From Bacteroidia bacterium (GTDB taxonomy: Bacteria; Bacteroidota; Bacteroidia; B-17B0; Aurantibacillaceae): a DNA stretch of 64,000 nt. Of the stretch, positions 12,900 through 32,562 are shown one piece after another. Below the pieces are notes generated by a model, which had not been told where the DNA came from, did not search any database, and saw only the letters and a program-made list of their open reading frames with translations. The position numbers and the translations under genes were made by a program. Position 1 is the first letter of the stretch. The number at the start of each line of letters is the position of its first letter. The DNA lies in NCBI GenBank assembly GCA_016787895.1, contig JAEUTN010000020.1:124001-188000 (forward strand). The letters are read 5' to 3'.

Positions 12900-13385
12900 A
12901 TGAAAACACCAACAATTCTCTTAACAGCGCTGCTTGCCTTTATGCTTTGGTCCTGCGGTGGCAGTGAAAAACCTGCGGATGCACAAACCGGTGGCGAAGC
13001 CCCCAAAAGCATGGTGGCCGATCCCGAATCGTATGATCCAAAACGCGGGGAGGGTAAATGGACAACCGAAAACATTAATCTCGGAGCTACTTTGGATGCG
13101 GCAATGGCCACTGAAGGGGAGAAAATAAGTGGGGTGAAGTGTACCTCCTGTCACAAAATGACGGAGGAAAAATTGGTTGGTCCGGGTTGGAAAGGCGCGA
13201 CCTTAAAAAGGACTCCGGAGTGGATTATGAATTTTATTACCAATCCTGATCCAATGATTGATAAAGATCCTGAGGTGCAGGCCATGCTTGAACTTTGTTT
13301 GGTACGTATGCCCAACCAGAACCTCAGTGACACTGATGCCAGAAACATTCTTGAATACATGCGTAAAATAGACGGAGTTAAATAA
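12900..13385 (+). CDS. Monohaem cytochrome c lipoprotein of the nos operon
   Basis: The 161-residue protein has a lipoprotein signal (lipobox LWSC, Cys19) and one haem c site, CTSCH at about residues 81-85, with a likely Met axial ligand in VRMPNQNL near residue 140. Clade II nos clusters commonly carry such cytochromes, which are thought to pass electrons to NosZ; here it is the first gene of the operon, 19 bases before nosZ, which fits that role. The operon promoter region carries two palindromic sites. Electron delivery to NosZ is inferred from context. Confidence 0.88.
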   Translation: MKTPTILLTALLAFMLWSCGGSEKPADAQTGGEAPKSMVADPESYDPKRGEGKWTTENINLGATLDAAMATEGEKISGVKCTSCHKMTEEKLVGPGWKGATLKRTPEWIMNFITNPDPMIDKDPEVQAMLELCLVRMPNQNLSDTDARNILEYMRKIDGVK

Positions 13386-13404
13386 AAAAATAAAACCAAA
13401 TCAA

Positions 13405-15390
13405 ATGAAAAGCAAAATAACAACAGCAGTAATTGCGGGTTTAGCTTTGGTTTCTGTGATGGAATCCTGCAAACCAAAAAGCACCGGCAATGCCGTTAGC
13501 GGTGATGCCGCCGGTAAAGCGTATGTAGCACCCGGCAAACACGATGAATACTACAACTTTGTCAGTGGAGGTTTCAGCGGACAAATGAGTGTGTACGGTT
13601 TACCAAGCGGACGTTTGCTTCGCGTTATTCCGGTATTCGCGGTCGATCCTGAAAAAGGGTGGGGATACAGCGAAGAAACCAAACCCATGCTGAACACTTC
13701 ACATGGTATTGTTCCCTGGGATGATTTACACCACACCCAATTGTCAAAAACCGAAGGTGAAATCGACGGACGCTGGGTATTTGGTAACGCCAACAACACC
13801 CCCCGTGTAGCCAGAATTGACTTAAAAACCTTCAGAACGGCTGAAATCATTGAACTTCCGAATAGTGCCGGTAACCACTCATCCCCTTTCATCACTGAAA
13901 ATACAGAGTATGTTGTTGCCGGAACCCGTTTCAGCGTTCCTTCGGATAACGCGAATGGCGATGTTCCTATCAGTACCTATAAAGAAAATTTCAAAGGCTA
14001 TTTAAGCTTTATTTCTGTGAACAAGGAAAGCGGAGAAATGGACATTGCTTTCCAAATCGAATGCCCGGGTGTAAACTTTGACCTGAGCCGTGCCGGAAAG
14101 ATGAAATCGCACGGATGGTTCTTTTTCTCATGTTACAATACCGAACAGGCCAACACCTTGTTAGAGGTAAACGCTTCGCAACGCGATAAGGATTTTATCA
14201 TGGCTGTAAATTGGAAAAAGGCCGAAGAGTATATCAAAGCCGGGAAAGGAAAAAAAACACCTGTTAAATATGCTCATAACGTTTACAGCGATGAAAACCA
14301 TTCAGCTACTTCGACCATTAAAACGGAAGTATTGGTGTTGGATTCAAAGGAATTGGCTGACATCTGTTACATGATGCCTTGTCCTAAATCCCCGCACGGA
14401 TGTGACGTGGATCCAACCGGTGAGTACATTGTTGGTAGTGGTAAGTTAGCAGCTTTAATTCCTGTATTTAGTTTTGATAAAATGATAAAAGCCATCGCCA
14501 ATAAAGAATACGATGGGGATTATCTGGGCATACCCATCATTAAATACGAATCGGCTTTGTACGGTGAGGTTAAAAAGCCGGGTCTCGGACCTCTTCACAC
14601 CGAGTTCGACGGTAAAGGAAACGCCTATACCTCTTTCTTTGTGTCGTCTGAAGTAGTGAAATGGAACATAAAGGAATTAAAAGTGGTGGACAGGGTTCCA
14701 ACATACTATTCTGTGGGTCACCTTTGCATCCCCGGTGGTGATTCCAGAACCCCTTCGGCTAAATACCTGATTGCCTATAACAAAATCACAAAAGACCGTT
14801 ACCTGCCTACAGGTCCTGAGTTGTCGCAAAGCGCCCAATTGTACGATATCAGTGGAGAAAAAATGCAAATGATTCTCGATTTCCCGACCATTGGCGAACC
14901 ACACTATGCACAGGCGAGTCCTGCTGCCATTATCGAAAAAAATCAGCTGAAGTTGTTTAAGATTGATGAAAACAAACACCCTTATGCGGCTAAAGGTGAG
15001 GGAGAAGCAAAAGTGGTGAGAAATGGCAACCAGGTACATGTGTATATGACCTCTGTTCGTTCCCACTTTGCCCCTGATAACATTGAAGGAATAAAGGTAG
15101 GTGATGAGGTGTATTTCCACGTAACTAATCTTGAGCAAGACTGGGACGTTCCACACGGTTTCGCAGTAAAAGGTGCATCCAATGCAGAACTGTTAATCAT
15201 GCCGGGTGAAACACAAACCTTAAAATGGGTTCCTGATCGTGTGGGTATTGTGCCAATCTACTGTACCGACTTTTGCAGTGCCTTACATCAGGAAATGCAG
15301 GGTTATGTGCGGGTATCTCCTGCCGGCAGTAAAGTTCCTTTGACTTACCACGTTGGTAAAACAGCGGCTGAAATTCCGGCCTCTAACTAA
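13405..15390 (+). CDS. nosZ: Nitrous oxide reductase, clade II
   Basis: The 661-residue periplasmic enzyme reduces N2O to N2. A seven-bladed propeller domain holds the CuZ cluster; DDLHHTQLS (about residues 110-118) contributes His ligands, with further ones in NHSSPFI and SPHGCDVD. The C-terminal cupredoxin domain holds CuA: Cys620, Cys624 and His628 in CTDFCSALHQEM, with Met631. The signal peptide lacks a twin-arginine motif and ends in a lipobox-like MESC (Cys22), typical of the Sec-exported clade II (atypical) NosZ and unlike the Tat-exported clade I. A hairpin terminator follows, so nosZ and the cytochrome are probably made in excess over the maturation proteins. Confidence 0.97.
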   Translation: MKSKITTAVIAGLALVSVMESCKPKSTGNAVSGDAAGKAYVAPGKHDEYYNFVSGGFSGQMSVYGLPSGRLLRVIPVFAVDPEKGWGYSEETKPMLNTSHGIVPWDDLHHTQLSKTEGEIDGRWVFGNANNTPRVARIDLKTFRTAEIIELPNSAGNHSSPFITENTEYVVAGTRFSVPSDNANGDVPISTYKENFKGYLSFISVNKESGEMDIAFQIECPGVNFDLSRAGKMKSHGWFFFSCYNTEQANTLLEVNASQRDKDFIMAVNWKKAEEYIKAGKGKKTPVKYAHNVYSDENHSATSTIKTEVLVLDSKELADICYMMPCPKSPHGCDVDPTGEYIVGSGKLAALIPVFSFDKMIKAIANKEYDGDYLGIPIIKYESALYGEVKKPGLGPLHTEFDGKGNAYTSFFVSSEVVKWNIKELKVVDRVPTYYSVGHLCIPGGDSRTPSAKYLIAYNKITKDRYLPTGPELSQSAQLYDISGEKMQMILDFPTIGEPHYAQASPAAIIEKNQLKLFKIDENKHPYAAKGEGEAKVVRNGNQVHVYMTSVRSHFAPDNIEGIKVGDEVYFHVTNLEQDWDVPHGFAVKGASNAELLIMPGETQTLKWVPDRVGIVPIYCTDFCSALHQEMQGYVRVSPAGSKVPLTYHVGKTAAEIPASN

Positions 15391-15402
15391 AACTAGTTGG
15401 AT

Positions 15403-15435
15403 GGGAGCAGAGGCACAATCTGCTCCCTTCTTTTT
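15403..15435 (+). terminator. Hairpin with T tract between nosZ and nosL
   Basis: GGGAGCAGA pairs perfectly with TCTGCTCCC across a 7-base loop, followed by TTCTTTTT. It lies 12 bases after nosZ and 55 bases before the next gene on the same strand. It may end most transcripts after nosZ, leaving readthrough or a separate promoter to feed nosLDFY. Confidence 0.8.
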
Positions 15436-15482
15436 CCTGTGCAAAACGTACCTTTTTACCGGCCTCTATTAATACATACCTC

Positions 15483-16502
15483 ATGACTACACCATCCAAA
15501 AAAATAAGACCACTTTCAAGAGTTTTGCTTTTTCTTTCAGCTGCACTGCTTGTTGTTTCTTTGTTTCTACCCATTTGGAGAATTGATCTGGATGCGCCTC
15601 AATACCCCGAAGGGCTTAACCTGATGATTTATGCTGATAAATTGGGAGGAAATGTTGAGATTATAAACGGACTGAACCATTACATCGGAATGAAAACCCT
15701 GCACACCGAAGATTTTATTGAATTTACCGTGTTGCCATACTGCATCCTGTTTTTCGCGGCCTTTAGTTTACTCGCTGCCATTGTGGGCAGAAAACGCGTG
15801 CTGTATACGCTCTTGTCCTTATTTGTGCTTTTCGGTATAGTGGCCATGGTGGATTTCTGGCGATGGGAATACAATTACGGACACAATCTCGATCCAAACG
15901 CCGCTATCATTGTTCCGGGTATGGCCTACCAGCCTCCTTTGATTGGCTTTAAACAACTTTTGAATTTCGGCGCGTATTCAATTCCGGATAATGGCGGTTG
16001 GTTATTTATTTTAAGTGGTGTTTGTATGTTGTTGGCAACGCTTCTGGAGACTGGAGTTCTCAATAGATTTGCAAAAAATAAAAACCTTGCCTTATCATCA
16101 ATCGTGGTATTAAGTTTCGCAACGTCCTGCAGTTCTTCAGGGCCGGAACCTATTGCCCTAAACAAAGACAATTGTGACTATTGTAAGATGACCATTTCCA
16201 ACGTTCGTTTCGCGACGGAACTCATCACTTCCAAGGGCAGGGTGTATAAGTTTGACGACGTTTCCTGTATGATCAATTACAAAAAGGAAAATTCAAATAT
16301 GGCATCCGCTAAATTCTATATCAGCGATTACCTTGAACCGAATGCCTTATTAAAGGCCGACTCTCTGTTTTATGTTTCCGGAGAAGCAGTCGGAAGTCCG
16401 ATGGGTGGGGACATAGCCGCTTTTTCGAATTCCGATAGTGCTCAGGCTTTTTTGGTTAGATTATCGGCTCAACCCCTTTCCTGGGCTCAAATAAGCGAGT
16501 AA
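15483..16502 (+). CDS. nosL: Four-helix membrane domain fused to NosL copper chaperone
   Basis: One continuous 339-residue frame joins two proteins that are usually separate. Residues 1-195 hold about four membrane helices (near 13-31, 84-101, 106-124, 173-190), a membrane protein type seen next to nosL in Bacteroidota. Residues about 197-339 are NosL: a hydrophobic stretch ending in a lipobox-like LSFATSC (Cys216), then CDYCKMTI with Cys231, Cys234 and Met236 that would bind Cu(I), then KFDDVSCMI. NosL is known to deliver copper for assembly of the CuZ site. The internal lipobox suggests either a retained fusion or cleavage and lipidation of NosL. nosD follows after 3 bases. Confidence 0.88.
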   Translation: MTTPSKKIRPLSRVLLFLSAALLVVSLFLPIWRIDLDAPQYPEGLNLMIYADKLGGNVEIINGLNHYIGMKTLHTEDFIEFTVLPYCILFFAAFSLLAAIVGRKRVLYTLLSLFVLFGIVAMVDFWRWEYNYGHNLDPNAAIIVPGMAYQPPLIGFKQLLNFGAYSIPDNGGWLFILSGVCMLLATLLETGVLNRFAKNKNLALSSIVVLSFATSCSSSGPEPIALNKDNCDYCKMTISNVRFATELITSKGRVYKFDDVSCMINYKKENSNMASAKFYISDYLEPNALLKADSLFYVSGEAVGSPMGGDIAAFSNSDSAQAFLVRLSAQPLSWAQISE

Positions 16503-16505
16503 GTT

Positions 16506-17741
16506 GTGATCAGAATCTTTTATATTTTCCTGCTATTTTTTTCGGCTTTCCTCTCGCAAGCAAACAATGTTCATGTTGGAAAAAGCCAGGTTTTTTCAAC
16601 TATAAAAGAAGCCATAGCCAAATCCAATGCGGGGGATACCATTTGGGTTCACGAAGGCATTTACCGGGAAGGAAATCTGGTAGTGGATAAACGTCTGATA
16701 TTAATCGGGAAAAATTACCCCATACTTGATGGAAATAAAAAGCACGAAGTGTTGTCGGTAAAAGCCGATTTTACCTGCGTGAAAGGGTTTAAAATACAAC
16801 ATTCAGGCTACGCTTCGCTTGACGATCCCTGTGGAATTAAGGTTTACGAAAGCAGGGGAGTAGAGATCACCGATAACATTCTGGATGATAATTTTTTTGG
16901 CATTTATATTCAGTATGGGAAACAATGTGTGGTGAAAAACAACCGCATCAGGGCTTACGGGGTGGAGGAACAGCAAATCGGCAACGGCATACACTGCTGG
17001 AAAAGCGATAGTTTATTAATCATTGGCAATAGGATTGAAGGGCACCGCGATGGTATTTATTTTGAATTTGTCACCAATTCGGTGATCTGGAGAAACCGGT
17101 CCTTTAACAATATCCGCTATGGTCTGCATTTTATGTTTTCCAACAACGATGCATATATCACCAATTATTTTAAACACAACGGCGCGGGGGTGGCCGTAAT
17201 GTTTACTAAAAATGTGAAAATGTTCAATAACAGTTTTGAAGAGAACTGGGGAGACGCTGCGTATGGACTGATGCTTAAAGAAATATCAGATAGTTACATC
17301 ACCGGAAATCATTTTTTGAAAAACACAACCGGCATTTACATGGAGGGCACTAACAGAATTCTGGCAGAGCATAACACCTTTCAAGCGAATGGATGGGGAA
17401 TGAAAATTCAGGCGAGTTGCATGGACAACGAAATTCGTTCGAATAATTTTATTGGAAACACTTTTGATGTCAGTACCAATGGCAGCACAGTATTAAACAC
17501 CTTTAACGGCAATTATTGGGATAAATACAACGGGTATGATCTGGATAGAAACAAAACCGGAGATGTACCTTACCACCCCTTGAGTGTGTTTTCGGTCATT
17601 GTTGAACAAACCCCGCCGGCCATGTTATTATTTCGTAGTTTTATGGTGGATCTTTTGGATAAATCAGAAAAAATAGCCCCCAGTTTGACGCCTGATCATT
17701 TTGTGGACAATCAACCACTTCTTCATTCTCTCCCCCTGTAA
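16506..17741 (+). CDS. nosD: NosD, periplasmic beta-helix protein for CuZ maturation
   Basis: The 411-residue protein starts at GTG, 3 bases after nosL. A signal peptide (MIRIFYIFLLFFSAFLSQA) is followed by a right-handed parallel beta helix of the CASH type, seen as repeated N/G-rich turns such as NNRI, GNRIEGHRDGIYF and TGIYMEGTNRI. NosD acts with the NosFY ABC transporter in assembling the copper-sulfur CuZ centre. Its C-terminal end (residues about 365-411) leaves the repeat pattern. Length and operon position fit the family. Confidence 0.95.
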   Translation: MIRIFYIFLLFFSAFLSQANNVHVGKSQVFSTIKEAIAKSNAGDTIWVHEGIYREGNLVVDKRLILIGKNYPILDGNKKHEVLSVKADFTCVKGFKIQHSGYASLDDPCGIKVYESRGVEITDNILDDNFFGIYIQYGKQCVVKNNRIRAYGVEEQQIGNGIHCWKSDSLLIIGNRIEGHRDGIYFEFVTNSVIWRNRSFNNIRYGLHFMFSNNDAYITNYFKHNGAGVAVMFTKNVKMFNNSFEENWGDAAYGLMLKEISDSYITGNHFLKNTTGIYMEGTNRILAEHNTFQANGWGMKIQASCMDNEIRSNNFIGNTFDVSTNGSTVLNTFNGNYWDKYNGYDLDRNKTGDVPYHPLSVFSVIVEQTPPAMLLFRSFMVDLLDKSEKIAPSLTPDHFVDNQPLLHSLPL

Positions 17742-17744
17742 ATT

Positions 17745-18458
17745 ATGATTGTTGTAGAAAATCTGTGCAAGCAATTCGGAAAGCTGCAGGTGTTGGACCA
17801 TGTTAACCTGACCTGCAGCAAAGGGGAGTGTATAGCACTCATTGGGCCAAACGCTTGTGGAAAAACCACCCTGATAAAAAGTATTCTGGGCATGGTGATA
17901 CCTGACAGCGGCTCCATCCGATTCAATGGTGAATTCATTAACCGGCAATACCTTTACCGGAACAGCATTGGGTATATGCCTCAAATTGGCCGTTACCCCG
18001 ACAATATGTCGATTGGCCAGATAATGGAGATGATCAGGGAAATACGAAATTACCAGTCGAATACAGATGAAGAACTTCTTGAGGCATTTAAACTCAAAGA
18101 TTTGTTTCAAAAGCGCATGCGTACCCTTTCAGGCGGCACCACGCAAAAAGTAAGTGCTACCCTGGCTTTTTTGTTTCATCCTCAGGTACTGATATTGGAT
18201 GAACCTACAGCAGGACTCGATCCACTGGCCTCTGAAATTTTGAAAGAAAAAATTGTTAAGGAAAAGAAAAACGGACGTTTAATACTCATTACCTCTCACC
18301 TTTTAAGTGAATTGGACGATTTGGTGACGCAGATTGTATTTATGCAAGAAGGCAGGGTGCATTTTCACAAAACAGTTGAAGCGCTTAAATTGGATACGGG
18401 TGAAGAAAAACTTTCCAAAGCCATTTCCTCAATTTTAAAACAAAGTCAGCATGAATAG
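17745..18458 (+). CDS. nosF: NosF, ABC transporter ATPase
   Basis: The 237-residue ATPase shows Walker A GPNACGKT (34-41), the signature LSGGTTQ (128-134), Walker B VLILDEP (148-154) and the switch His185 in ITSHLL. It powers the NosDFY complex that matures NosZ. It starts 3 bases after nosD and its last 8 bases overlap the start of nosY, so the three are translationally linked. Confidence 0.95.
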   Translation: MIVVENLCKQFGKLQVLDHVNLTCSKGECIALIGPNACGKTTLIKSILGMVIPDSGSIRFNGEFINRQYLYRNSIGYMPQIGRYPDNMSIGQIMEMIREIRNYQSNTDEELLEAFKLKDLFQKRMRTLSGGTTQKVSATLAFLFHPQVLILDEPTAGLDPLASEILKEKIVKEKKNGRLILITSHLLSELDDLVTQIVFMQEGRVHFHKTVEALKLDTGEEKLSKAISSILKQSQHE

Positions 18459-19218
18459 GATTATCAAATTTGTGATCCTGGATATTTTGAAGAACAAGGT
18501 GGTAGTGGTGTATACCTTTATTTTGGCTGCACTTTCCTGGAGTGTTTTTGCCCTTGAAGACAACAGCACGAAAGGTTTACTCACGCTTTTGAATGTGGTT
18601 TTGTTGATTGTACCCCTGGTGTCGGTTATTTTCTCAACCATCTATTTGTACAACAGCTCTGAATTTATTGAGTTGTTGCTCAGCCAGCCGGTAAAACGAA
18701 GTAAGATCTGGTTCAGTCTTTTTATTGGTTTGAGCCTATCGTTGTTGTTTGCGTTTTTTGTTGGTGCCGGTATTCCCATTCTGATTTATGCTCCGCCTGA
18801 TGTAAGTCTTATGATGCTGGTGATGGGCATTATTATTTCTACTGTATTTGTATCCATCGCGTTTTTAGGTTCAGTATTTACACGTGATAAAGCAAAAGGT
18901 ATAGGGATTGCCATCCTGCTCTGGCTCTTTTTTGCCCTCTTGTTTGATGGTCTGCTTCTTTTTCTGTTGTTTCAGTTCTCCGACTATCCCATTGAAAAAG
19001 TAGTGGTGTTTATTTCCGCCTGTAACCCCATTGATCTTGCCAGAATTATGATTCTTCTGCATTTGGACGTTTCAGCCATGATGGGTTACACGGGGGCGGT
19101 GTTTAAGGACTATTTCGGAAGCCGCTCGGGCAGTGTTGTTGTGCTTTTGATTCTTACGGTATGGGTGTTTTTGCCCTATGCCATTTCCCTGTCAAAATTT
19201 AAAAAAAAGGATCTTTAA
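18451..19218 (+). CDS. nosY: NosY, ABC transporter permease
   Basis: This 255-residue protein has six hydrophobic helices (near 20-36, 50-70, 90-112, 118-140, 148-172, 228-246) in the ABC2 permease pattern and begins inside the end of nosF. It completes the NosDFY maturation complex. Its stop codon is immediately followed, with no spacer, by the stop of ric on the opposite strand, so no terminator separates the convergent genes. Confidence 0.93.
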   Translation: MNRIIKFVILDILKNKVVVVYTFILAALSWSVFALEDNSTKGLLTLLNVVLLIVPLVSVIFSTIYLYNSSEFIELLLSQPVKRSKIWFSLFIGLSLSLLFAFFVGAGIPILIYAPPDVSLMMLVMGIIISTVFVSIAFLGSVFTRDKAKGIGIAILLWLFFALLFDGLLLFLLFQFSDYPIEKVVVFISACNPIDLARIMILLHLDVSAMMGYTGAVFKDYFGSRSGSVVVLLILTVWVFLPYAISLSKFKKKDL

Positions 19219-19986
19219 CTATATCATATCTCGTACAGCGATTTCCAGATTAATACATTTTGGAAACAAGATGTTGTTTTCGAGATGAATGTGTTGGTGC
19301 AGGTCTTCTTCAAATTCATTGAGTTTTGCAAAACTAACCCTGTAAGTTGCACAGGCTTCTGCCGGTGGAGTGTAATTATCGGTTAAGATCCTGATGGATT
19401 TAAACAATTCACCTACCGTTTCGTGTTCCAGCTCCATCATGCGAATGGGTTGTTGTGCGGATGAAAATGCCGGAAAATGGCGAAATTCGGGATTCGCATG
19501 ATTGGTGCTTAGTTGTTTGATATAGGGAAAGAGCACCTGTTCTTCTTTGTACATATGGGCGGTCAGTTCCTCAGCGGCTTCAGCAAATAAAGTGGCGATG
19601 TCTATTAATTCCGGGTGCTCCTGGCCATGTACCCGGGCTACTTTATTGGTGTATTCAATTAGTAATGGGATGGCGGACTTGACATACCGGTGATGAGTAT
19701 GTACAATGTAATCCGCCAAAAATCCTGCATCCCAGGTTTGGAAATTTTGAGAGGCTGTTCCTGCCTGGCCTTCTACCTTAGTTAATTCGCTCCTGATTTC
19801 CGTATAATTTAGATTTTTTTGACGACAGACACTTGAAAGTGTTTTGTTTCCGCCACAACAAAAATCAATGTTGTATTTTTTGAACACCTCCGCTTTGCGG
19901 TAATTTTCAGCTACTTCTTGTCCAATCGTGTTTTCAGTGTCTTCTGCCACGGACAACTGGTATTCAAAGCTTTCACTATTTTTCAT
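19219..19986 (-). CDS. ric: Iron-sulfur cluster repair di-iron protein (RIC/YtfE/ScdA)
   Basis: The 255-residue protein has the ScdA N-terminal domain with DFCCGG (Cys43, Cys44) and a haemerythrin-like domain whose His and Glu ligands are visible in HTHHRYVKS, HMYKEEQVLFPYI, ELEHETVGE and HQHIHLENNILFP. RIC proteins repair Fe-S clusters damaged by NO or oxidants and may release iron. Its place between the nos and nor operons fits nitrosative-stress defence. No TGAY-N4-GTCA or Rrf2-type site was found upstream; it may be read from the thioredoxin-fold gene 40 bases before it. Confidence 0.94.
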   Translation of the reverse strand: MKNSESFEYQLSVAEDTENTIGQEVAENYRKAEVFKKYNIDFCCGGNKTLSSVCRQKNLNYTEIRSELTKVEGQAGTASQNFQTWDAGFLADYIVHTHHRYVKSAIPLLIEYTNKVARVHGQEHPELIDIATLFAEAAEELTAHMYKEEQVLFPYIKQLSTNHANPEFRHFPAFSSAQQPIRMMELEHETVGELFKSIRILTDNYTPPAEACATYRVSFAKLNEFEEDLHQHIHLENNILFPKCINLEIAVRDMI

Positions 19987-21420: not shown

Positions 21421-21460
21421 TCGGATAAAAGTATCCGAATTAATCAAATTGTTACATTTA
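21421..21460 (+). promoter_or_regulatory. norC promoter with Rrf2-type operator
   Basis: TCGGATAAAAGTATCCGA at 21421-21438 is an inverted repeat with perfect 7-base arms, and TACATTTA at 21453-21460 is a near match to the -7 element. The operator would cover the -33 region, the same geometry as at the Rrf2 gene (32 versus 34 bases from operator start to -7 element). Confidence 0.65.
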
Positions 21461-21550: not shown

Positions 21551-21976
21551 ATGAAGTTCAATTCGATGATAAGGTGGGTTTACTTTTTCCTGTGCACCCT
21601 GTTTATTGGTTATTCGTTAGTACTCTATCAAGCTTCAGGTACCCCGGATTCGGTGGATTACGATGTTAAAAAAGCCGCTTCAGGCCATTTGGTCTGGCAA
21701 AAATACAATTGCCAGGCCTGTCATCAGCTGTACGGATTGGGAGGATACCTTGGCCCCGACTTAACCAATGTGTATTCCGTGAAAACAAAAGGCCCGGATT
21801 ACATCAGGGCGCTGATCCGGTCGGGTTCAAAACAAATGCCGGGTTTTCAATTAACGGAGGGAGAAATGAACGAGCTTCTTGAGTTTTTGAAATCAACGGA
21901 TGAGAGCGGAGTAGCCGATCCCAGGGAGTTTAAAACAACAGCATCAGGCATGATACAGGCAAATGAAAAACACTGA
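21551..21976 (+). CDS. norC: NorC-like membrane-anchored cytochrome c
   Basis: The ATG at 21551 gives 141 residues: one N-terminal membrane anchor (about 8-25, VYFFLCTLFIGYSLVLY) and a periplasmic monohaem domain with CQACH (about 53-57) followed by LGGYLGPDLTNV, the usual NorC pattern. The likely Met axial ligand is in KQMPGFQL. NorC passes electrons to the haem b of NorB. The last 14 bases overlap the norB start, so the subunits are translationally coupled. The upstream region carries both palindromes. Confidence 0.92.
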   Translation: MKFNSMIRWVYFFLCTLFIGYSLVLYQASGTPDSVDYDVKKAASGHLVWQKYNCQACHQLYGLGGYLGPDLTNVYSVKTKGPDYIRALIRSGSKQMPGFQLTEGEMNELLEFLKSTDESGVADPREFKTTASGMIQANEKH

Positions 21977-23309
21977 ATTTTCGATAGCCAGACTATACTT
22001 GTACAGCGCTTTATTACTGTTGGTTCTGGGCTTGTGTTTTGGCCTTCTTGGTGCCATAGTTTATGTGAAGCCTGATTTTTTAAAGGATAACCTCGGCTTC
22101 GTTTCCTTGCGCCCCATGCACGTGAGCTCCGTTTTATTTTGGATTCTGCTGGGTGCTACAGGTGGTATTTACGCTTCCTTACACGCGCTTGTGCCGGGAT
22201 TTCAGAAGCCGGGTCTGGCGAAATTACAATGGGTGCTCTGGCTTATTGCTATCGCAGGCATCTATGGTTCGTATATTACAAAAAACTTTGGCGGGAGGGA
22301 GTACTGGGAATTTACACCCATCTGGGCACTTCCAATTGGAATGGCCTGGTTGTTTTTTGTTTGGAACGTGCTGCGTGTTTTGCGAAGAATAAAAGATTGG
22401 CCGGTGTACCTGTGGATGTGGCTGACGGGTTCCGTATTTTTCTTTTTTATTTTTATAGAAAATTACCTTTGGCTCTTCCCTTATTTCAGGCAGCATTTTG
22501 TGAGCGACATGACCATACAATGGAAGGTGAATGGCTCCATCGTTGGTGCCTGGAATCAACTGCTATATGGCGCCTTATTTTACCTGATGGACCGCATTTC
22601 GGGGAATACCGGTACCGGCCGCAGTAAACTTGCTTTTTTTATGTATTTCCTTGGGCTGTTCAACCTGATGTTCAATTGGGGGCACCATATTTATACACTG
22701 CCCACGCAGGCTTATGTTAAATATGTTGGATACGCGGTTAGTATGACAGAATGGATATTTTTAATCAAAATCATCTATAACTGGAGGTCAACCGTAAGCG
22801 CTGCACAAAAACACGGCCACTACTTTCCGTATCGTTTTGTAATGGCTTCTGATTTTTGGGTGTTCATCAATTTATTACAAGCCCTTATGATGTCGATTCC
22901 GGCGATTAATATTTACACACACGGCACGCATGTTACCGTTGCGCACGCCATGGGCACTACCATAGGTATTAACAGCATGATTCTGTTGGCCCTGTGTTTC
23001 GAATTTCTTTTACCATCAAAACAAAACGAAGGGACAAGGCCCGGCATCCTTAATTTTGCATATTGGACCCTTCAGGTTTCACTTTTTATCTTTTGGTTAT
23101 CACTTTTACTGGCAGGGATTAAAAAAGGGCTTTGGCAAATGAGTGCAACGCAAACTGTGTATTCGAAAATGATGGATTCGCTGCAGCCGTATTTTATAAG
23201 CTTTCTGGTTGCCGGTTGTGCTTTGTTTTTGGCACTTTTTGTTTTGGCCGGAATATTGGTTAAACCACTTTTTACAAAACGCCAACCAGAAGCTGCCAGA
23301 AATGCCTGA
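21963..23309 (+). CDS. norB: NorB-like nitric oxide reductase catalytic subunit with altered metal ligands
   Basis: The 448-residue, about 12-helix protein belongs to the NOR branch of the haem-copper oxidase superfamily and pairs with NorC. Conserved residues by position against Pseudomonas cNOR are His53 (low-spin haem), His241-His242 (FeB), Glu263 (cNOR Glu280) and His328 (haem b3). Three expected positions differ: cNOR His207 corresponds to Asn190, Glu211 to Val194 and Glu215 to Asn198, in VNGSIVGAWNQ; cNOR His349 corresponds to Met330 in AHAMGTT. The spacing (51 residues from Asn190 to His241) matches cNOR exactly, and Gly195 and Trp197 are conserved. It is thus a non-canonical NOR, or a relative with another activity. 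It overlaps norC and the next small gene. Confidence 0.85.
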   Translation: MKNTEFSIARLYLYSALLLLVLGLCFGLLGAIVYVKPDFLKDNLGFVSLRPMHVSSVLFWILLGATGGIYASLHALVPGFQKPGLAKLQWVLWLIAIAGIYGSYITKNFGGREYWEFTPIWALPIGMAWLFFVWNVLRVLRRIKDWPVYLWMWLTGSVFFFFIFIENYLWLFPYFRQHFVSDMTIQWKVNGSIVGAWNQLLYGALFYLMDRISGNTGTGRSKLAFFMYFLGLFNLMFNWGHHIYTLPTQAYVKYVGYAVSMTEWIFLIKIIYNWRSTVSAAQKHGHYFPYRFVMASDFWVFINLLQALMMSIPAINIYTHGTHVTVAHAMGTTIGINSMILLALCFEFLLPSKQNEGTRPGILNFAYWTLQVSLFIFWLSLLLAGIKKGLWQMSATQTVYSKMMDSLQPYFISFLVAGCALFLALFVLAGILVKPLFTKRQPEAARNA

Positions 23310-23487
23310 AGAAGTATACTATAGTGTGTTTGCTATTGCCTGGTTGCTGTTTGCCTGGCTGCTTGGCAAATACATCCGCATGAAAGGCAGGGCATTAAAA
23401 CAACAGGTGGTGATTGGCTTTGGAGCTTTGCTCGTTTTTTATTTTTTGGGTTTGATTATTCTGTTCATTGGAATAATGACTTCCTGA
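23302..23487 (+). CDS. Small two-helix membrane protein of the nor operon
   Basis: The ATG overlaps the last codons of norB (stop at 23309) and opens a 61-residue protein, MPEEVYYSVFAIAWLLFAWL, with two membrane helices (about 6-22 and 36-58) joined by a basic loop GKYIRMKGRALKQQ. I do not recognise the family. The overlap means it is almost certainly co-translated with norB, and it could be a small accessory subunit. It converges on the radical SAM gene 13 bases away. Confidence 0.7.
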   Translation: MPEEVYYSVFAIAWLLFAWLLGKYIRMKGRALKQQVVIGFGALLVFYFLGLIILFIGIMTS

Positions 23488-24387: not shown

Positions 24388-24429
24388 TAGGATAAAAATA
24401 TCCGATTAAAATCAGCTGCATTACTTTTG
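24388..24429 (+). promoter_or_regulatory. Promoter and putative autoregulatory operator of the Rrf2 gene
   Basis: TAGGATAAAAATATCCGA (24388-24405) repeats the operator seen at norC with one change per outer arm, and TACTTTTG (24422-24429) is an exact TAnnTTTG -7 element. The operator sits over the -33 position, which suits repression. It may also control the divergent radical SAM gene and, by readthrough, nrdD and nrdG. Confidence 0.7.
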
Positions 24430-24444
24430 GAAAAACACTTTTTT

Positions 24445-24882
24445 ATGATTTTCTCAAAAGCCATCGAGTACGGGATCAAAGCCAGTATTTATGTTGCGCA
24501 GCAATCCATGAATGGATACAGGTCGAATCTTAAAGAGATTTCCGAGCATATAGATTCCCCTGAGGCGTTTACAGCTAAAATTCTGCAGCAATTGGTAAAA
24601 GGAGGAATCATACACTCCATAAAAGGAGCAGGAGGGGGATTTGCTCTGGAAATTAAGGAAATAAAAAAAATTAAACTGGCTGATATTGTACTGGCACTGG
24701 ATGCTGATTTTTTGGATAGCACCTGTGTTTTAGGCCTGAAGCATTGTTCTGAAACCAATCCTTGTCCTGTTCACCACAAATACAAAGGCATTAAAAAGGA
24801 GACCCTGTATCTTTTAAAAAATACAACATTACTCGAAATGTCTACTAATCTCGATAAAGGATTGGCTTATCTTAAAAATTAA
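24445..24882 (+). CDS. Rrf2-family Fe-S transcriptional regulator (NsrR-like)
   Basis: The ATG at 24445 gives 145 residues (MIFSKAIEYGIKASIYVA), the usual Rrf2 size and start; an upstream TTG lies within the -7 element. A winged helix-turn-helix occupies residues 1-70 (LKEISEHIDSPEAFTAKILQQL as two helices, then IKGAGGGFAL as wing). Three cysteines, Cys94, Cys101 and Cys107, have spacing C-x6-C-x5-C, like the cluster ligands of NsrR and IscR. NsrR senses NO through its cluster. Here the gene carries what looks like its own operator, shared with nos and nor, so NO-responsive control of denitrification and anaerobic ribonucleotide reduction is likely though inferred. Confidence 0.9.
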   Translation: MIFSKAIEYGIKASIYVAQQSMNGYRSNLKEISEHIDSPEAFTAKILQQLVKGGIIHSIKGAGGGFALEIKEIKKIKLADIVLALDADFLDSTCVLGLKHCSETNPCPVHHKYKGIKKETLYLLKNTTLLEMSTNLDKGLAYLKN

Positions 24883-31326: not shown

Positions 31327-32562
31327 TTAGGTCAGTGGAAATTCAATTTCTGATCTGCGTTTAAATTGAGAGACAAATAAAAAGAAAGCCCCGGCTGACA
31401 GGAGTAGTGCCACTATAAACAAGGTTTCATTCACATTGGGAATTACAAAGTAGCTGAAGGAAGCAACACCCTGTATCGCTAATACCAGCTCATTAAAAAA
31501 CACTCCGGATAAAAACAACACAAATCCCAATGCACTCAGGTGGTTTCTTTGAATTAAATTCTGCACATAACTGTACACCAGTAAAAATACACTGATTACG
31601 GCCAATAGCACAAGGTGCAGGTAAGCAATAACAATGGGCCTGAAGCCAAAGGCCAGTTTCGCGATAATAGGCACTGTTGAGCCCAGTTGCAATAGCAATT
31701 TTATACTGAAGCCCAGTATCACAAACAGGAACACATACACACTGAGTTTATCGGGAGCTGAAACCTGCACCTTTAATTTTTTGAGGTGTGTCAGCACTTT
31801 TATCCATCCGAAAAGTTGCACCAAAGCGGCCAGGATAACAAGGATGTATAACCACAACGGTATGTTGGCCCATAGTACAGAGAGAAAGTAAGCAGGAATA
31901 GCTGAAGTAAAAAACAAAGTAAAAATGCTTTTGCTGTATGGAATTTGTGGGAATTTTTCTTTCAGTGCATTAAGTGCCAATCCAAGGCAAGAGAAGAGAA
32001 AAAAGCCATTGTATTGAAAATGCAGGTAAAAGTAAACGGCGGCCAGATACCAGTTTTCATTAAAGTTTCGTGTGGCCATAATGTAAGCAAGGTAAAGCGT
32101 GCCTACCGATGAAAGGATGTTAAACCAAAGAGCAGCCCTGAACCAGTTGTTTTCCCTGTCATTCTCTTCTGTCTTACGAAGGTCTCTGAAAAAATAATAG
32201 GCAAAAAAGCAGGCAATAACAATTGTACCCGAAGATAAAACAATGGAACTGATGGAATATCCATACACAAAAAACGAGAGGAGCATACCGTAGGAACAAA
32301 GCAGGTTGCAGGCTAATAAACGGTTGTAGGGTTGGGGTGAAATGACGTTGTTTTTTTGGTGCAGGTACCAAACCAGCAAGGCATAGATGGTTTGGCTGAT
32401 CCAACCGGCGAAAGCAAAGTGAGAATGGGCGTATTGAATGTATTTTTGATTAAAATAGGGAAACTCAAAACCTATCTTGTAACGCATGAGTGTACCTAAA
32501 AGTGCTACTATAAAAAGATTAAGTAGTGAAAAGCCAAGCCAAAAACGCGTTCTGAATATCAT
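31327..32562 (-). CDS. Degenerate haem-copper-oxidase-like membrane protein
   Basis: The 411-residue protein has about 12 membrane helices and no name that I can assign. Three of its His positions follow the spacing of CcoN from this window: His48 in YAHSHFAFAGWISQ (CcoN His59, low-spin haem), His181 in YFYLHFQYNGFF (CcoN His206, CuB) and His316 in AYLHLVLL (CcoN His344/346). Intervals are 133 and 135 residues against 147 and 140. The His-His pair expected near residue 231 is missing (AYFLSVLWANIP). It could be a haem-binding relative such as an NnrS-like protein or an inactive subunit. It is divergent from the HMA protein, sharing an Fnr-like site. Confidence 0.72.
   Translation of the reverse strand: MIFRTRFWLGFSLLNLFIVALLGTLMRYKIGFEFPYFNQKYIQYAHSHFAFAGWISQTIYALLVWYLHQKNNVISPQPYNRLLACNLLCSYGMLLSFFVYGYSISSIVLSSGTIVIACFFAYYFFRDLRKTEENDRENNWFRAALWFNILSSVGTLYLAYIMATRNFNENWYLAAVYFYLHFQYNGFFLFSCLGLALNALKEKFPQIPYSKSIFTLFFTSAIPAYFLSVLWANIPLWLYILVILAALVQLFGWIKVLTHLKKLKVQVSAPDKLSVYVFLFVILGFSIKLLLQLGSTVPIIAKLAFGFRPIVIAYLHLVLLAVISVFLLVYSYVQNLIQRNHLSALGFVLFLSGVFFNELVLAIQGVASFSYFVIPNVNETLFIVALLLSAGAFFLFVSQFKRRSEIEFPLT

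Follow-up and report, generated by a model that had tools for sequence, protein, structure and literature searches.

NorBx, an NO-reductase-like membrane protein family, mainly from Bacteroidota, in which two signature histidines of the haem-copper superfamily are replaced

Results

The norCx-norBx locus

The window, a 64,000-nucleotide stretch of a Bacteroidia bacterium contig, encodes a gene pair, norCx-norBx, that adjoins a nosZ cluster, a gene for the RIC repair protein, an Rrf2-family regulator gene and anaerobic nrdDG (Table 1; the family name NorBx, with norBx for the gene and norCx for its partner, was coined in the present analysis). The norBx reading frame is intact and its product matches COX1 with 114 bits, the best NCBIfam match being cbb3, below threshold. 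The norCx frame opens at 21449, with a likely start at about 21551, and overlaps norBx by 14 nt. Its product carries a haem motif (CQACH) and a Met ligand in QMPGF, and resembles NorC subunits of known structure by phmmer (3o0r_C, 9e-12; 4xyd_B, 3e-6). In the nos cluster, NosZ was recognised by TIGR04246 (935 bits), NosL by its domain, and NosD, NosF and NosY by sequence and gene order. The short hydrophobic ORF at the end of norBx has weak matches in a few other norBx loci besides the counterpart listed in Table 1.

Table 1. Features of the window around norCx-norBx
Feature	Position	Strand	Description
nos cluster	12900..19218	+	cytochrome c, clade II (Sec) nosZ, NosL-domain protein, nosD, nosF, nosY
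NosL-domain fusion	15483..16502	+	between nosZ and nosD; N-terminal membrane segment fused to NosL domain
RIC/ScdA iron-sulphur repair di-iron protein	19219..19986	-	TIGR03652, 246 bits; NO-stress gene
norCx	21551..21976	+	NorC-like membrane-anchored cytochrome c
norBx	21963..23309	+	NorB-like haem-copper-superfamily subunit, 448 aa
His53	22119..22121	+	retained low-spin haem ligand; 70/70
Helix VI segment K188-N198	22524..22556	+	N190 (His207 position), V194 (Glu211), N198 (Glu215); K188 invariant
His241-His242	22683..22688	+	retained metal-B ligand pair; 70/70
Glu263 (cNOR Glu280 position)	22749..22751	+	retained; 70/70
His328-Ala329-Met330	22944..22952	+	H328 and M330 70/70
61-aa hydrophobic ORF	23302..23487	+	overlaps norBx end; 57% identical ORF at same place in L002/L082
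Rrf2-family regulator	24427..24882	+	NsrR-like candidate; TIGR00738
411-aa membrane protein	31327..32562	-	HSHFAFAGW motif

We collected 80 norBx loci from genome contigs (47-78% identity), nearly all from Bacteroidota MAGs; two are named Thermoanaerobaculia and Competibacteraceae and may be mis-binned. The norCx gene precedes norBx in every locus, and in 78 the two are immediate neighbours on one strand. RIC is present in 31/80 loci, the Rrf2 regulator in 38/80, and nos genes lie no more than 10 kb from norBx in 11/80. In L013, L015 and L071 nirK stands beside the pair, and a cNOR operon occurs together with it in L013-L015 and L023, the order in L014 being norC-norB-RIC-hemerythrin-norQ-norD-unknown-TPL-norCx-norBx. 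Since some carriers thus have cNOR in the same operon, NorBx is not merely a substitute for it.

Several other neighbours recur. A tyrosine-phenol-lyase homologue (TIGR02618; L014:8166-9572) lies directly upstream of the pair in 24/80 loci, and nadA/nadB or proline dehydrogenase genes flank it in others. A protein of about 604 aa (L002:6428-8197, L014:6289-8097 and 37 other loci) is encoded near norBx in 39 loci and co-occurs with it in 13/16 genomes, the window's genome being one from which it is absent. Cysteines are conserved in the C-terminal half of this protein, which has no Pfam or NCBIfam match; its structural model gave weak Foldseek matches to the FMN barrels of nitronate monooxygenase and enoyl-reductase and no clear tie to NO. 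The 411-aa membrane protein of Table 1 recurs in 14/80 norBx loci, likewise has no Pfam or NCBIfam match, and is possibly another distant haem-copper-oxidase-like or NnrS-like haem protein.

Ligand positions and alignment register

An earlier note on this DNA had placed Asn190, Val194, Asn198 and Met330 of NorBx at the positions of cNOR His207, Glu211, Glu215 and His349, with His53, His241, His242, Glu263 and His328 retained. Comparison with cNOR of known structure upheld this pattern in full. By phmmer the best solved relatives are 4xyd_A (9e-14) and 3o0r_B (8e-9), and N190 pairs with H207, V194 with E211, N198 with E215 and M330 with H349, while the kept ligands H241-H242 pair with H258-H259 and H328 with H347. 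The register was unchanged when a profile of 70 NorBx sequences was aligned to 4xyd_A (9e-26), in hhalign profile-profile comparison with Bacteroidota cNOR, and in MAFFT alignment with cNOR, qNOR and cbb3 rows. A one-residue slide of helix VI is possible when NorBx is aligned to cbb3; it rescues no ligand, because residues 185-199 contain neither His nor Glu, whatever the register. Neither of the two findings that would have undone the note's reading, another His and Glu at the FeB site or a close likeness to ordinary cNORs, was made; identity to cNOR is only about 22%.

NorBx retains only the HH pair of the cNOR FeB ligand set (His207, His258, His259, Glu211), and four of the six haem-copper signature histidines, the other two being replaced family-wide. 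The substitutions recur in the 80 loci and in the 19 matches among the related genomes described below. His328 sits at the retained proximal ligand position of the high-spin haem, and Met330 takes the place of the low-spin haem ligand His349.

Conservation and selection

In an alignment of 70 NorBx sequences about 64 columns are strictly conserved, among them H53, Q186, K188, G191, G195, N198, Y202, N234, N238, H241, H242, Y244, E263, H320, H328 and M330 (each 70/70). By contrast, the His207 column drifts: position 190 is Asn in 50 sequences, Tyr in 19 and Ser in one, with Gly or Leu in outer members. Residue 190 can thus bind no metal, and the idea of Asn190 as an alternative ligand was dropped. 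At the Glu211 position Val occurs in 67 of the 70, with Ile, Ser and Thr once each. Met330, fixed in all, is a credible haem ligand as judged from the alignment.

The norBx gene is under purifying selection (dN/dS 0.08-0.31, with dS above 1 and near saturation). A mutation in one gene, chance, sequencing error and a pseudogene were rejected on the strength of dN/dS and conservation across the family. NorBx is a large, apparently undescribed family of NO-reductase-like membrane proteins and not a single oddity. We found no description of it in the papers searched, although the supplement of the PNAS 2024 survey (Murali et al.) may contain the family, and a search of a plasmid collection returned only ordinary, uninformative NorB-like matches at 25% identity.

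Fold and descent

Structure modelling, which the note had proposed, agreed with membership of the superfamily. The AlphaFold model (pLDDT 88.7, pTM 0.90, lower around residues 241-250) has the subunit I fold of the haem-copper oxidases and matches cNOR and cbb3 along the whole chain (Foldseek against cNOR 3o0r_B, 6.5e-12); its structural Z scores for cbb3 (39.3) and cNOR 4xyd (38.9) are tied.

In a tree with an aa3 outgroup, NorBx formed a clade (97/98) outside cNOR plus qNOR (100/100). A second tree, with NOD-like rows added and no aa3 outgroup, placed NorBx outside cNOR, qNOR and the NOD-like proteins together (99/97); as one of its rows (L152) is a wrong reading frame, we treat this tree as supportive only. 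The cNOR clade excluded NorBx in both trees (99/99 and 100/99), and in neither did NorBx fall within the qNOR clade. As to a sister relationship with cNOR plus qNOR or with cbb3, support was 89/50 with the aa3 outgroup and 96/65, for cbb3, without it. With this position outside cNOR plus qNOR, NorBx cannot count as a cNOR or as one of the known NO dismutases (NODs).

Many Bacteroidota also encode qNOR-like proteins of 770-850 aa with SHN for the HH pair and FSTLQ for FSALE, a putative NOD signature; HH to HN is the substitution given by Ettwig et al. for putative NO dismutases (PMC3413370). Such genes lie close to norCx-norBx at L018:2472-4886, L030:1305-3782, L046:1087-3429, L066:7197-9551, L079:7220-9547 and L080:6070-8442, and the signature is found in further rows (L141-L150, L152-L156).

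Distribution with nosZ, nitrite reductase and other NO reductases

The window's genome (99.99% complete) encodes four COX1-family proteins, namely two A-type oxidases, one cbb3 and NorBx, and therefore has no other NO reductase of this family. It has nosZ; searches for nirK and nirS in it found neither. Among 60 related genomes, this one included, 19 have a NorBx match, 22 have NosZ and 17 have both (Fisher p 9e-9; the p-values given here ignore relatedness). Within the genus, nosZ is present in 10/10 norBx carriers versus 1/27 non-carriers, and some NosZ genomes are without norBx. The association of norBx with nitrite reductase in the 60 genomes is weak (p 0.1), whereas cNOR and qNOR-like proteins taken together do follow it (p 1e-4).

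In a set of 50 carrier genomes, sharing a few members with the 60 relatives, NosZ is found in 43 and is missing from seven. NirK, the nitrite reductase looked for in this set, occurs in 16 with partial genes counted. Eight have cNOR and 12 more a qNOR-like protein, all of the HN type, so that an ordinary cNOR or qNOR is missing from 42/50. The search for NO reductases covered the C-type enzymes, and in seven nirK genomes, six of these with nosZ, NorBx is the only one of that type; G038 is a further nirK genome with norBx and no other C-type NO reductase.

NorD belongs to the chaperone through which cNOR receives its FeB. It occurs in four of the 60 related genomes, every one with cNOR, and in none of those with NorBx but without cNOR, the window's included; a NorBx that needs no classical FeB inserted would give this pattern. 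Since qNOR likewise lacks NorQD (PMC9976466), this absence is weak evidence.

Discussion

A candidate NO reductase with a rebuilt site

The fold, residue pattern, conservation, gene pairing and distribution of NorBx described above are the ground from which we infer the haem content, Met ligation, state of metal B, electron direction and reaction of NorCxBx. The pair would form a two-subunit complex that handles NO and belongs to the C-type branch of the haem-copper superfamily. The NorC-like cytochrome c is the most likely point of electron entry; from there electrons would go to a low-spin haem with His53 and Met330 as ligands, then to a high-spin haem on His328. As the distal site keeps His241-His242 without the first His and the carboxylate, it would hold no non-haem metal, or one bound differently. 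NO would be reduced, most likely to N2O, which NosZ would then remove, and NorCxBx could be the cell's only NO reductase or could work alongside cNOR.

The earlier note had called the protein a NorB of an atypical NO reductase, perhaps with a different metal or mechanism. Its identity as the NorB of a cNOR did not survive the trees, but the substitutions are real and an atypical reductase is still the most likely reading. Neighbours linked to NO and N2O in many loci, the selection on norBx, the donor subunit and the status of NorBx as the only NO-to-N2O candidate found in several genomes make an NO reductase with a rebuilt distal site the best single explanation. On the other side, FeB-free cNOR of Paracoccus has its full haem complement but no activity (PMC9976466), so that a mere absence of FeB should put an end to NO reduction, and the distribution of norBx follows nosZ much more closely than nitrite reductase, unlike that of a denitrification NO reductase. 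On balance we give an even chance to NorBx being a third C-type NO-handling lineage, most likely an NO reductase, with a site rebuilt without the classical FeB.

This bears on genomes with nir and nosZ but no nor, reported for 9% of Bacteroidota with denitrification genes (PMC12569097) and for a third of nirK+nosZ Bacteroidetes (PMC4250227). The first survey removed sequences without conserved ligands and so would have discarded NorBx; the gene overlooked in such surveys may be norBx. A fuller proposal is put forward tentatively, at somewhat less than an even chance: NorBx would be a third, previously undescribed C-type NO reductase lineage that does without the classical FeB site, has His/Met ligation of its low-spin haem, and supplies the "missing" enzyme of nir+nosZ Bacteroidota without a recognised nor.

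Alternative readings

The main rival, which we consider unlikely, is that NorCxBx has ceased to be a reductase and supports N2O respiration as a haem complex for electron transfer or protection, for example by carrying electrons between NosZ and the quinol pool or periplasmic cytochromes, or by capturing NO that would otherwise poison NosZ. Its appeal lies in the link to nosZ, much stronger than that to nitrite reductase (17/19 and 43/50 carriers), and in a distal metal site that looks dismantled. However, 7/50 carriers are without NosZ, some NosZ genomes are without norBx, and nos genes are near norBx in so few loci (11/80); the retained HH pair, high-spin haem ligand and Glu263 would also go unexplained. 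No haem-copper oxidase is known to serve as a quinol-to-cytochrome conduit.

A sensor of NO or redox state, or a structural relic without catalysis, is improbable. Three residues that the cNOR active site cannot do without are gone, and a regulator gene is present in 38/80 loci, both of which would fit such a role, but an electron-donor subunit has been kept, and the strictly conserved columns include polar residues that are new and invariant (K188, N198, Y202, N234, N238).

Less probable still is an NO dismutase (2 NO to N2 and O2) or other non-reductive NO chemistry. A His-to-Asn change together with a missing Glu is reminiscent of putative NODs (PMC3413370), and a NOD-like gene is close by in at least six loci. 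Yet NODs belong inside the qNOR clade, from which the trees separate NorBx, and they change HH to HN and Glu280 to Gln, two sites that NorBx keeps; a NorC electron donor would be useless to a dismutase, and the presence of NosZ suggests N2O. That NorBx is an ordinary cNOR, its alignment misread and its site occupied by a different His and Glu, is scarcely credible given residues 185-199 and the low identity, and no point in its favour was found.

Significance

The loss of two signature histidines across a whole family challenges the view of a His-ligated binuclear site as indispensable in the haem-copper superfamily. NorBx carriers consume the greenhouse gas N2O, often without another known NO reductase. 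If NorBx reduces NO, many genomes now taken as incomplete or as N2O sinks only would turn NO via N2O into N2, and models of N2O emission would change. NorBx makes the question of the missing nor directly testable.

Comparison with known systems

With cNOR (NorCB; 3o0r, 4xyd) NorBx shares fold, size, a NorC-like cytochrome c partner, the THGT motif, His53, the HH pair, the proximal His and the Glu280 position. It differs in lacking His207, Glu211, Glu215 and His349, in its new invariant K188, N198, N234, N238 and M330, in its place outside the cNOR clade, and in the absence of NorD from genomes that have NorBx but not cNOR. With qNOR (3ayf) it has in common the C-type branch and the core fold, but it has no fused N-terminal domain (448 aa, with a separate NorC-like subunit), has lost ligands and forms a separate clade. 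NOD (Ettwig 2012, PMC3413370) resembles NorBx in a metal-B His turned to Asn and a lost catalytic Glu; however, in NOD a His of the HH pair and Glu280 are gone and HxxxE is retained, while NorBx has lost HxxxE but retains the HH pair and the Glu280 position, and pairs with a cytochrome c subunit. The cbb3 subunit CcoN (3mk7) shares the fold (Z 39) and a QW motif where helix VI begins and is the best NCBIfam match, but NorBx has no CuB ligand His in helix VI and lacks the six-His signature.

The note had also called for placement against eNOR, sNOR, bNOR, gNOR and nNOR, all proposed or shown alternative NO reductases with, like NorBx, changed active sites. The trees, which covered cNOR, qNOR, cbb3 and NOD-like rows, put NorBx outside cNOR plus qNOR; the five families we compared by their descriptions, and the best structure and profile matches of NorBx are to cNOR and cbb3. 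These families are related to B-family oxidases (PMC11388526), and sNOR, gNOR and eNOR are described with a cupredoxin second subunit and a polar Asn, Asp or Gln in the active site (PMC8756737); NorBx has Val at that position and a cytochrome c for a partner. By these descriptions NorBx does not appear to fit eNOR, sNOR, bNOR, gNOR or nNOR.
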